Shown here piece after piece: positions 53,174 to 58,826 of a stretch of DNA of 64,000 nucleotides (positions are counted from its first letter, which is position 1; each line of letters starts with the position of its first letter). The notes below the pieces were generated by a model that had not been told where the DNA came from, searched no databases, and saw only the letters and a list, made by a program, of their open reading frames with translations. The DNA is from an uncultured Rubritalea sp. GTDB lineage: Bacteria > Verrucomicrobiota > Verrucomicrobiia > Verrucomicrobiales > Akkermansiaceae. The stretch is from the NCBI GenBank assembly GCA_937132085.1, contig CAKZNV010000107.1, forward strand, positions 39,484 to 103,483. The letters run 5' to 3'. Position numbers and translations under genes: made by a program.

Positions 53174-54553
53174 CTAATCATGCACCACTGGTGTCCCAAA
53201 TAAGGTGAATCCAGAAGAACGTTCGATCTTGATTGGTAAAATTTTGCCAACCATGCGGTCATGATTTCCGTCGAAGATGACGATCTTGTTTTGGCTAGTG
53301 CGGCTGCTGAGTCGGCTAGCATCCTTCTTAGAGCCGCCAGTGCAGAGCACTTCTTGAGTCGTGCCTACTAGAGCATCGTGTTTAGCGATTGCCATCTTGT
53401 TGATCATCGCTAGTAGATCTTGGTTTCGCTCTTCCTTCACTGTCTCAGCGATCTGGTCTACCATCTCAGCGGCTGGTGTGTTGCGGCGTTTTGAGTAGCG
53501 GAAGATAAAGGCATTATCGAAGCCAATGTCTCGCATCGTCTCCTTCGTCATGAGGTAGTCTTCTTCCGTTTCTCCTGGATAACCTACAATGACATCTGTA
53601 GTGATGGCTAGGTCCTTGCGGGCTTGCTTCATCTTGTTACAGATCTCTACGAACTTCTCGTTCTTGTAGGGACGACGCATCAGCTTAAGAATGCGGTCAC
53701 TGCCACTCTGCATCGGGAAATGGATGTGTGAGCAGAGTTTTGGAAGATAAGTGAACGCATCGATGAGGTCGTCACGATAGCCGATCGGGTGAGGGGAGGT
53801 GAAGCGGATACGCTCGATACCCTCGATCTCATGCACCTGCTCTAGCAGCTGGACGAATGGTGATTTTCCATCCACTTTTGGAAATTCTGTTCTGCCGTAA
53901 AGATTGACGATTTGTCCGAGCAGAGTGACTTCTACCACTCCACGGTCACGCAGAGTCTTGATTTCATCGATGATGCTCTGGATCGGTCTGCCACGTTCTT
54001 TTCCACGTGTGTCAGGGACGATGCAGTAGGAGCAACTCATGTTACAGCCCTGCATGATAGAAACGAAAGTCGAAGGATTGATTGTCTCTGTGACGTGATC
54101 TTTAATCGTGTTCTGAGAATCTTTTTCTTCCTCGATATCACAGACTGACTCTCCAATCATGGAGAGCTCCACATCATCCATGCGGCGTTCGAGTCGCTTG
54201 GTGAGGATGTCATCCACATATTGGAAAACCTTATGGTATTTCTGAGTGCCCACGACCACATCGAGGTGAGGCACATTATCGAATAATTCATTGCCACGGC
54301 TCTGCGCCATACAGCCCATGAAGCCATAGACTACATGTGGTTTACGCACACGGTGCTTACCCATGTGGCCCATTTTTCCAAGCGCCTTTTGTTCTGCTTG
54401 ATCACGCACTGAGCAAGTATTGACGAGGATAGCATCTGCATCAAACTCATCTTTAGTAAGCGTGTATCCACCTTCTGAAAACATCCGAGCAACCTGCTCA
54501 GAATCACGTTCATTCATTTGTCATCCGTAGGTCTTGATAAATACTTTAGGCAT
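53174..54553 (-). CDS. miaB: tRNA-2-methylthio-N6-dimethylallyladenosine synthase MiaB, candidate selenoprotein (UGA 54521-54523)
   Basis: True start ATG 54553: MPKVFIKTYG-UGA-QMNERDSEQVARMF...; homologs read KTYGCQMN. Remaining Cys (VNTCS, GFMGCMAQ, CNMSCSYC) intact. Confidence 0.9.
54485..54501 (-). promoter_or_regulatory. Candidate bacterial SECIS of miaB
   Basis: UGA + 19 nt + CUGAGCA-GGU-UGCUCGG: 7 bp stem including one U-G, GG at loop start, loop begins 26 nt after UGA. Confidence 0.75.
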
Positions 54554-54788: not shown

Positions 54789-57700
54789 TTACCGTGCCAT
54801 ATTTATTCTTACAGGTTTTTTATCTTTATATTGAGTGATTTTACTGAGTAGAAAATTCTCTAGTCGTTTGTTTTTCATCAGCCGAGCTAAGTCAATTGCT
54901 TTTTGTTGAGTGGCTAGGGCTTGTTTGAAATCGCTTGTCTCTGCATAGGAAGCAGCTAATAAATCTAAGGATAAGGGGTGCTGACCTTTGGTTTTTTTTA
55001 CTAGATCTTCTGCTAGTTTGACTGCTTTCGCTCCATCGCGGAGTGAGGCTTGTGTCGATGTGGCATAAATGCGAGCGAGGTTACTCATGCTATTCATGTC
55101 TTCTGGGTGTTGTTTTAGAATAGCTTGGTATAGAGTTCTGGCAGCTCTAGGTTCCCCCATTTTTTCATAAGTGACAGCAGCCTGATGTTGATAGGATGTT
55201 ACATTAGGCCATTTTTTTATCAAGTTATTGTAGTGTTTGATCGCTTTTTTAAATTGACGACCCCGGTCAAAATATGCGGCAAGACTGAGTTCAAAAAGAG
55301 CTTCTGTTGGTGCAAGTTGATGTGCTTTTAAATAATGCTCTGCGGCAGTTATTCGATTGCCTTGACGCTCCAGGACGATTGCGTATTGGAGCTGCGCTTG
55401 TGGAAAGTCAGGATTCATTTTGATTGCCTTTTCTAGTATAGTTTGCGCTTCTGGATACTGTTTTAGCGAACTCAGTATGAATGCTGTGTTGATATGAGCT
55501 GCGACAAGATTGCTATCGATTGCCAACGCATTTTTATAATACTGAATGGCGGCTTGGCTATTTCCTTTTTCTTGCTGTAGCAGGCCTAAATAAAAATGCG
55601 GCTTAGCTGATTTAGGGTAGATTCCTCTGATGCGCTCGAAGTGGGTGATCGCTTCATTTGTTCGTTTATTTTTTACTAAGTAATCACCAAAGCTTAGATC
55701 GAAATCTCGTCTGCTGTGTGCAGCGATTAGAGGCTTTTGTTGTTCAAAGTAATCATAACTACTGTTTAAGTAACCTGCATCTAACAATAAACTCGATACA
55801 TTAACATAGGAGAAGGTTGTGGCTTCTCTTTCATACCATTTGCCCTTAAAGGGGAGTATGGCATCACGTAGTTTAGTGTTTTCCAAAGAGGCTAACTTTA
55901 GGTCTGCTAAAATTGTTTCGCTTGTTGCTCCACCTTTGTAAATAGCTACTAGCTCTCCTTTAGAGTCGAGTAACAATAGAAGGGGCACTGGGAGAGGGCG
56001 ATGTTTTCCTAGTAGAGCATTGTTTACTATCTGAATTGTTTCGATCATTTGTTGACTGGCATGGCCAACAGGAAAGGGTGGTTTAACTTCGTTAATGTAG
56101 TTTTCGGCAGCTTGTCGTCCACCAGAGAGAGTGTCTGTTGCTAGAGCGATAACACCTAGTCCTTCTTTTTGGTAGTTTGAGTAGTGTTTAGTAATTTCTT
56201 TGATCTCTTCTTGGCACAATGGGCAACTACTGCTGAATATTTTTATTAGAGTGCCTTTCTGGTTTGCGAGTGGCTTAAGTTGTTTCTTGTCTCCCTTTAA
56301 TGTTTCATAGTCGAGCCTAGGTAAACTGATTCTTGCACTAAGAATAATCCGTTCTTTTCCTGACTTCTTAGGCAGGATAACTGGCGTTTCAGATATGCTT
56401 GGAGCAGGAGTAGAGTGAGTGAGTAACTGCGCCTTCCCATGATTTTGGACCAGCAGGTTACGTTTACCTGAAATGACTCCAGAGAACGTTTCTTTCTCTC
56501 CGCCTGGCCATTTAACGGAAACGGAAACGATACTTGATTCATTACCGAAGGGGATAGTAAGGACTTTAGAGTTCTGGCTCAAGAAACCTTCACCAGCACG
56601 CAATGTCCTGATTATAGTTGGAGTGTTTTTGTCTTTGAAGTTTAAAGTAACTTGGGCTCCTATCGCATCACGGTTGGAGCTAGTGCCTCGAAGGCTTAAA
56701 GCTACCCAGTTGTTGTTGCTAGTTGAGTTATTTCTAAGGACTCTGATGCGGGGGGCTGTGCGGTTGGCAACGATCATGTCTAGGTTTCCATCTCGATCCC
56801 AATCTGCTACTGCGACGGTTCGAGCATCATCGATGAAATCTACTCCAGACATAGCAGATGCTGTGGCAAATCGTTTCTCTCCAGTATTGAGGAAAAAGCA
56901 ATTACGTTCTCTACCGCTCCAGGCTTCACCTTTAATCACTCTATTATTTGCTTCTTGAATAGCGGTAAGGTAGGCGGCTTGCACATCTTGAGATGATTGG
57001 TTCTCGATTGCTGATTCTGGTGTGAGCGACACGACCTGTCGCCAAAAGAAACTTCAGAGATCTGGAGCACTTTTCTCAGAGCTTACGAAGCCATTTGGGA
57101 CATAGATGTCTTCCCATCCATCACCATTGGCATCAATAAATCTAGCACCCCAAGACCAGCGACCTTGACGAGTTCCGGAGCTATAGACTTGGTTCTCGAA
57201 TGTCCCATCTTCTTTCTGGATGTAGAGAACATTTCCTTGTGAGGTAAATTGAAGTGATTTACGTGAGTTACTAGTAGCATGTGGCATGAATTGCTTTTGG
57301 AATGCGATACGGTTGCCTGCGGCGGAGAACATGTTTGAGACATAGAGGTCTGGTCTACCATCTCGATTAGCATCTCCCCAGGCTACACCCATGCTGAAAG
57401 ATGAGGTTTCTAGGCCTAGCTCCTTTGTTACATTGGTGAATACTCCTTTGTCACTGTCGTTTCTGTAGAGACAGTTTTTGCCAAAATCATTAGCAACAAA
57501 CAGATCGCTGTCACCATCTTGATCATAGTCTTCCCAGCTGGCAGAATAAGAAAACCGGCTGTTATCTTGATTGAGACCTACTTCTTGAGTCACATCACGG
57601 AATTTCCAGTCTCCTTGATTGAGCAATAGAATGTTTTGGCCACCATTGTTGGCATCAAAGTAAGGAATAGGTGAGGCGATTGAGGTTCCATGATCACCTA

Positions 57701-58826
57701 CTTTATAATATCTCGTAATGTAGAAATCAATTTTACTATCATTGTTGTAGTCTGTAGCTGCCATGGTGTATCCTTGACCGGCATGTTTGATGCTATTTAC
57801 ATGTTTGAATTTTTCTCCACCCAGGTTCTCGAACAAGACGAAAGCTTCCTTAGTCTGAAGGGCGACGTCTTGATCGCCATCGTTATCAATATCTAGAATG
57901 AGTGCTGATCCTGATTCATTGAGAGCTGCTAAGTCTGAGTCCAGAGAGCCTTCTCGCACTGTTCCGTCTGGGTTCTGATAGAATACCCGGTTAGGGAGAC
58001 CTCCTGGCTGGCAAAGGTAAATGTCATCGAGACCATCGTTATTTAGATCTCCAACAGCCAGTCCATTAAAACCAAAATAATTGCGAATGAATGATCGTTC
58101 TAAACGCCCTTGCCAATCAGTCTGGGATAACGTCAGCTGCTCTTTCCATGCAGAAGTCTTCCCGAAAACAGTTTGCGAAACATCTGTGAAGAGTCGCTTT
58201 GCTGCGGTTATTTCCTCATAACTTTGCAACCATATTTTGCTGATTTTTGCCTTTCCTTCAACTTTCACCCATTCAATTTTCCAATCGGAATGTATTGTTT
58301 TGATCGAGTGTTTACTGATGTATGAAGTCTCGAGAAATTGTCTGGTGAGGTATACGTTTGGCTTATCGTTGTTCTTTTCTACCTTATAGAGTTTCCATGT
58401 AAACCGAGTAGTCGCCTCTGTTAGCTTAGTTTGGCTGATCCAAGTTTGGATGTTTTTTACTGGATCAGGTGAGAGTGTGCCATCTATTTTTTGTGTTCGA
58501 GCTACAGTGATTCCTTTTTTCTTCATCACAGTTTGGAGATGAGTCGGAGCTAGCAATGTGGACTGCGCATTTTCTGTGAAATAGAGTTTAAGTTTATGAG
58601 TAGGGATTTCTTTTTCCTTTAATTGAGTAGTTATCTCTTTGAGAGTGGTTTTTGCCAGTGCGCCAAATTGTTCCGTATCCCATTCAGTGGCTGCAGTGGC
58701 TGCTGAGTCCTCTTCAATGACTCTGCTTTGTTGCGTTTTAGTAGTTAATTCCTCAGCAGTAACGTTATATGCTGATAGAGCTAAAAAAAGTATGGATAGA
58801 TTTTTTAAGGTATTATTAAAGAGCAT
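54789..58826 (-). CDS. FG-GAP/VCBS - ASPIC/UnbV - thioredoxin-like - TPR protein (1345 aa), candidate selenoprotein (UGA 57054-57056)
   Basis: ORFs 57054-58826 (...SEKSAPDL) and 54789-57032 are in the same frame, joined by UGA-AGT TTC TTT TGG CGA CAG GTC (U-SFFWRQV) then VSLTPESAI; CRTAC1-like FG-GAP upstream, ASPIC/UnbV, SSCPLCQEE Trx-like and TPRs downstream. Confidence 0.75.
57026..57042 (-). promoter_or_regulatory. Candidate bacterial SECIS of the FG-GAP protein
   Basis: UGA + 11 nt + GCGACA-GGUCG-UGUCGC: 6 bp stem, GG at loop start, loop begins 17 nt after UGA. Confidence 0.7.

Follow-up and report, generated by a model that had tools for sequence, protein, structure and literature searches.

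Does the TGA that splits a long minus-strand reading frame in the window (the whole stretch of 64,000 nucleotides analysed here, from an uncultured Rubritalea sp.) end one protein, or is it read as selenocysteine (Sec) within a single, longer one? The standard-code ORF listing gives two ORFs, 58826-57054 and 57032-54789, which lie in the same frame and are separated by this one TGA, the only TGA in a scan of the window to be flanked by more than 300 open codons on each side. The minus-strand letters from the UGA on are TGA AGT TTC TTT TGG CGA CAG GTC GTG TCG C. Our answer, inferred from sequence alone and without proteomic or selenium-labelling data, is that the UGA is almost certainly a Sec codon served by the usual kind of bacterial SECIS. 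The features of the gene, and of the miaB gene in the same window, are collected in Table 1.

Table 1. Positions of the features discussed in the text, numbered within the window.
Feature	Position	Strand	Basis or remark
FG-GAP / UnbV-ASPIC / TlpA-like / TPR protein gene	54789..58826	-	single frame, 1345 codons, one in-frame TGA (putative Sec591), TAA stop
Putative selenocysteine UGA (residue 591; motif DL-U-SFFWRQVV)	57054..57056	-	TGA/Cys column in homologues
Putative bSECIS hairpin GCGACA-GGUCG-UGUCGC, 6 bp	57026..57042	-	sequence, covariation, background count, fold
Apical loop GGUCG	57032..57036	-	GGU in almost all homologues
UnbV_ASPIC domain (PF07593)	56466..56666	-	E 2.9e-13; 3' of UGA
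AhpC-TSA/TlpA-like thioredoxin-fold domain with CPLC motif	55947..56321	-	E 4.1e-8
C-terminal TPR repeats	54885..55697	-	domain search
miaB (TIGR01574) with in-frame UGA	53174..54553	-	445 bits vs cut-off 355
UGA replacing first Fe-S cysteine of MiaB (KTYG-U-QMN)	54521..54523	-	Cys/TGA column, 30 loci
miaB SECIS-like hairpin UCUGAGCA-GGU-UGCUCGGA	54484..54502	-	perfect 8-bp stem, loop GGU

The 1345-residue read-through product begins with a signal-like segment, followed by FG-GAP repeats, UnbV_ASPIC, an AhpC/TSA (TlpA-like) domain and TPRs. Since UnbV_ASPIC sits downstream of the UGA, it is joined to the propeller only when the UGA is read through. The product meets the criteria for membership of the CRTAC1-like proteins (PF13517 at 133 bits and PF07593 at 50 bits, both over the gathering score, with 9etn as best fold match). 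By sequence, then, it is an FG-GAP propeller that is exported and carries an ASPIC/UnbV domain; in its family the two are usually fused to a TlpA-like CxxC domain.

The read-through protein was searched against 98 genomes (its own and those of relatives), which returned about 70 genes with exactly one internal TGA; the loci were then fetched and aligned. At the column of residue 591, TGA is present in 79 of 85 distinct homologues of relatives and Cys in the other six, within the motif DL-(U/C)-SxxWRxVV or DY-C-TKFWCHD. Other FG-GAP genes and secondary matches without the motif at this column were left out of the count. The frame is open for at least 60 codons upstream of the TGA, and downstream to the end of the protein, in all 79 TGA homologues. 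The genome of the window itself carries two more paralogues, 33-38% identical to the window protein, with the same UGA. A scan of named genomes, based on a 12-row alignment of the type I sequences defined below and with search patterns drawn from downstream peptides rather than from the UGA, yielded 79 loci; the site is covered in 78 of them, and all 78 have TGA. Judged by record title, these loci belong mainly to Verrucomicrobiota (Akkermansiaceae, Roseibacillus, Limisphaerales), Planctomycetota (Pirellulales, Phycisphaerae) and Acidobacteriota (Terriglobia, Thermoanaerobaculia, Holophagales). Conservation of the UGA and its exchange with Cys are thus shown, and the window gene meets the selenoprotein criterion of an in-frame UGA aligned with Cys in homologues. 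In a tree calculated with the Sec/Cys site masked, one branch (100/100) separates all 79 Sec forms, with no Cys form among them. A sequencing error or pseudogene at the UGA is ruled out by its conservation in 157 genes. One very divergent UGA member (L140, G048:C157, locus position ~4826; DG-U-TCMWRAVV, branch length 4.3) was also seen and might represent a third subfamily.

A preliminary description of the locus had placed the hairpin at 57026-57042 with its loop 17 nt from the UGA, and this held to the base. The published bSECIS criteria (PMC13188914) are a UGA-to-loop distance of 16-37 nt, a loop of 3-9 nt with G in the first two positions, a stem of 4-16 bp and a minimum free energy of -7.5 kcal/mol or lower. 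The window hairpin meets all of them, with its loop GGUCG beginning 17 nt after the UGA, a 6-bp stem and an RNAfold energy of -10.0 kcal/mol over 50 nt. No Rfam family matched anywhere in the window at gathering thresholds. We set a strict rule, requiring a stem score of at least 5 and a loop that begins with GGU at 16-37 nt from the UGA, and applied it to a background of 47,173 TGA trinucleotides in the fetched loci and the window, not the whole genome. The rule is satisfied by 0.73% of the background TGAs, by 67/79 family UGAs in the relatives and 61/78 in the named loci, and by none of the six Cys forms of the family. The preliminary description had taken equally common hairpins at ordinary UGAs as the outcome that would refute it; the opposite was observed (0.7% vs about 80%).

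Covariation was compared with a null in which codons were permuted among genes with the same amino acid in each column, so that the protein and the column codon usage stay fixed (1000 permutations). In the 68 type I sequences (stem 15-20/26-31, counting the UGA as 1-3), 388 of the 408 cells are paired, against 368.4 ± 2.2 after permutation; 53 of the 68 sequences are fully paired (36.2 ± 2.1 permuted), and there are 15 two-sided (double) changes (6.9 ± 0.9 permuted). No permutation reached the observed value for any of the three measures. The pair 18-28 occurs as GU (29), AU (25), GC (7), CG (5) and UG (1). The permutation ignores sequence relatedness, so these counts are not independent events. 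The covariation itself is shown, and selection on the type I hairpin at the RNA level, beyond the protein and the column codon usage, is very likely. Nine shorter paralogues form type II, in which the stem is shifted by one and the loop GGUC starts from the same base; in this set alone, which is too small (n=9), pairing was not above the permutation null.

The organism is equipped for selenocysteine: its genome (4.46 Mb) encodes SelA (502.6 bits), SelB (305.6), tRNA-Sec (58.3) and SelD (373.4), all over cut-off, and so the criterion of a complete Sec machinery is met and this too is shown. The same is true of co-occurrence with SelB: every one of the 20 genomes that have a UGA family gene contains SelB over cut-off, versus 22/78 of those without one (98 genomes; Fisher p 1.5e-9). 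The figures for tRNA-Sec are 19/20 with the family and 21/78 without; three of the 19 matches came only from a more sensitive rerun, which was applied to the family-carrying genomes and not to the others. In G053 (a MAG, 93% complete) family genes and SelB are present and no tRNA-Sec was found. As for the genetic code, the family genes themselves end in TGA, TAG or TAA (56, 51 and 41, respectively, of the 148 with a visible stop), and TGA is therefore not reassigned; it is also the true stop of 5/40 long ORFs in the window. The selD gene of this genome (L225:1531-1533, contig C201) has an in-frame UGA of its own, SCGG-U-ASK, followed by a hairpin with the apex GCAA-GUU-UUGC.

The window MiaB is a true MiaB by score, and it differs from the TIGR01574 family in having UGA, accompanied by a SECIS-like hairpin, at the position of its first Fe-S cysteine. 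Among 30 miaB loci, its own included, the corresponding column holds TGA in 13 and Cys in 17, and the strict rule is met by 12/13 UGA genes (consensus UCUGAGCA-GGU-UGCUCGGA) versus 0/17 Cys genes; UGA and hairpin have been gained or lost together among relatives. The criteria for a MiaB selenoprotein, namely a UGA at the cluster Cys and a hairpin with UGA and none with Cys, are met. By the same reasoning as for the propeller gene, the window MiaB is a candidate for a second selenoprotein, though this also is inferred and not observed. MiaB is missing from the 2026 list of 119 prokaryotic selenoprotein families (PMC13188914). The case hints that Sec may be a ligand of the Fe-S cluster in this widespread tRNA-modifying enzyme. 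A further miaB homologue (L056, G003:C93:18510-19895) contains two in-frame TGAs.

In the mechanism that we propose, the hairpin would act as a bacterial SECIS and recruit SelB:GTP:Sec-tRNA-Sec to the ribosome at the UGA, and read-through would give a single exported protein of 1345 residues made of a Sec-containing propeller, ASPIC/UnbV, a TlpA-like CxxC domain and TPRs. Actual insertion of Sec during translation is inferred. The reading given in the preliminary description, in which a SECIS directs Sec to the FG-GAP protein and miaB is another such gene relying on one SelB, is supported by the Sec/Cys column, the covariation, the presence of selA, selB, selC and selD, the co-occurrence with SelB and the loss of the hairpin in Cys forms. 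Its claim of a shared cAGGU apex held only in part, being true of the window FG-GAP gene and miaB and failing for the two short paralogues of the same genome (GCGGUC, ACGGUC) and for selD (AAGUU). One cAGGU apex for all Sec genes is thus not general; what the loops have in common is a start with G[G/U]U. The window hairpin resembles bacterial SECIS elements of the E. coli fdhF type (consensus in PMC13188914) in lying just 3' of the UGA, with a 5-nt GGU(C) loop at 17 nt, a 6-bp stem and an energy below -7.5 kcal/mol, in a genome with SelA, SelB, tRNA-Sec and SelD. The stem of the fdhF SECIS has a bulged U; the window stem, unlike the fdhF type, has only 6 bp, with no lower stem and no bulged U.

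The AlphaFold model of the propeller-ASPIC part is confident (pLDDT 91.5, pTM 0.93) and predicts that Sec, model residue 366, lies in the first part of the helix 365-376. The nearest solved structure is CRTAC1 (PDB 9etn; Foldseek TM 0.67/0.70), and the FG-GAP plus UnbV_ASPIC architecture also matches by profile (E 2.6e-38). The Sec segment DL-U-SxxWRxVV, however, falls outside the stretches aligned to CRTAC1, and most bacterial forms, unlike CRTAC1, carry an extra TlpA-like domain and frequently TPRs as well. The CxxC in the TlpA-like region is found in nearly all long homologues and the domain is absent from most short paralogues; an ERN-C cysteine is present in most long homologues and absent from some homologues. 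No enzymatic function of the FG-GAP/ASPIC fold was known in the sources searched, and the genes neighbouring family members include no constant operon partner. Beside a Sec family member in one relative we observed a gene (L091:7688-10564) in which SCO1/SenC is fused to FG-GAP and UnbV_ASPIC, so that here too a CRTAC1-like propeller is combined with a thioredoxin fold. The selenol, placed at a helix start, could be activated by the helix dipole. On the mechanism that we infer as likeliest, it is exposed at the surface or in the periplasm, oxidised by a substrate, bonded to a partner Cys (ERN-C) and re-reduced by the in-cis CxxC domain; short paralogues without this domain would need a partner in trans. 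The selenol would then be what makes this envelope protein active in redox chemistry (or in binding a soft metal); this role is inferred, and a catalytic one is without direct support.

Three other readings of the UGA and its hairpin have to be weighed. If the UGA were a genuine stop, the product would be a 590-residue propeller, and the downstream part, from the GTG at 57032, would either be translated on its own after reinitiation or have decayed to a remnant. The ORF listing does give two separate ORFs, 57054-58826 and 54789-57032. However, 79 + 78 genes have UGA at this column with their two halves in frame, the 79 that were checked contain no further stop, the Cys homologues are one uninterrupted protein, and the strongly conserved SxxWRxVV falls between the UGA and the GTG; we consider a genuine stop very unlikely. 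Reassignment of TGA to an ordinary amino acid, or a suppressor tRNA acting without a SECIS, can be all but dismissed. The frame is indeed open under a changed code, but TGA ends 56/148 family genes and 5/40 long window ORFs, the hairpin is under RNA-level selection and lost in Cys forms, the residue exchanged at the column is Cys, and presence of the family tracks SelB; as a genome-wide code, reassignment is refuted by stop usage. The hairpin might also have no function and arise only because the conserved WRQVVS motif has to be encoded. Much of its complementarity does stem from protein conservation, with 368/408 cells already paired under the permutation null, but no permutation that preserves protein and codon usage attains the observed pairing or number of double changes, five different pairs occur at 18-28 (GU, AU, GC, CG and UG), and the unrelated miaB UGA has a similar hairpin that is absent from Cys miaB. 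For type I the by-product reading is rejected by the synonymous column permutation, and overall we hold it to be most improbable.

The main functional rival to a redox role accepts Sec insertion and has the selenol act at the envelope as a binding site for a haem-like ligand or a soft metal (copper, mercury), instead of taking part in thiol redox catalysis. This remains possible: the L091 fusion joins SCO1/SenC, a copper chaperone with a thioredoxin fold, to FG-GAP and ASPIC, and most short paralogues lack the CxxC domain. Against it stands the in-cis TlpA-like CxxC in nearly all long forms, with which redox recycling fits better.

The route of Sec insertion seen here is already known; as a selenoprotein, the family seems to be new, widespread and expanded. 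The known families include UGC-containing TlpA disulfide reductases (PMC13188914 Table 1), and the window protein shares with the TlpA selenoproteins (NF041054, WAxxUGC motif) a TlpA-like domain and the use of selenium. It differs from them in that its TlpA-like domain retains CxxC and its Sec is in the propeller, a long way upstream; its score with NF041054 is 31.5 bits, against a cut-off of 300. The 119 prokaryotic selenoprotein families listed in 2026 (PMC13188914 Table 1) include none named for FG-GAP, UnbV or CRTAC, and no NCBIfam model over cut-off fits the family. Nothing in the literature searched links selenoprotein with UnbV or selenocysteine with FG-GAP, and co-mentions of selenoprotein and FG-GAP are, by title, on unrelated subjects. 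Selenoproteins have been reported in Planctomycetes (PMC4807772). The family thus appears to be unlisted as a selenoprotein; priority is unsettled, and an earlier listing in the supplementary table of PMC4807772 is not excluded. A more sensitive search of four genomes gave at least 18 UGA paralogues (one partial) in G053, 14 or more in G045, nine or more in G074 and at least three in the genome of the window, all lower bounds with some first-look candidates left unscored. For comparison, the largest bacterial selenoproteomes known have 57 and 63 genes (PMC13188914).

A bolder reading, to be taken as one joint claim and towards which we lean only slightly, is that these genes form a large unreported family of exported CRTAC1-like propellers whose active-site selenol lies outside any thioredoxin fold and is in most cases coupled in cis to a thioredoxin-like CxxC. 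The family would reach from nine or more to about 18 Sec copies per genome in Verrucomicrobiota and extend to Planctomycetota and Acidobacteriota, with no reversion to Cys seen, and would represent a new selenium-dependent envelope chemistry and a main reason for which the Sec machinery is retained. If this is true, ordinary annotation splits or truncates at the UGA more than 150 genes seen here and many others in databases. Selenoprotein-rich bacteria have been described as anaerobic for the most part (PMC13188914); environmental PVC bacteria and Acidobacteriota, lineages to which reviews give little weight, would then use selenium far more than is catalogued, and a single reactive residue would open the widespread, uncharacterised FG-GAP/ASPIC proteins to functional tests.
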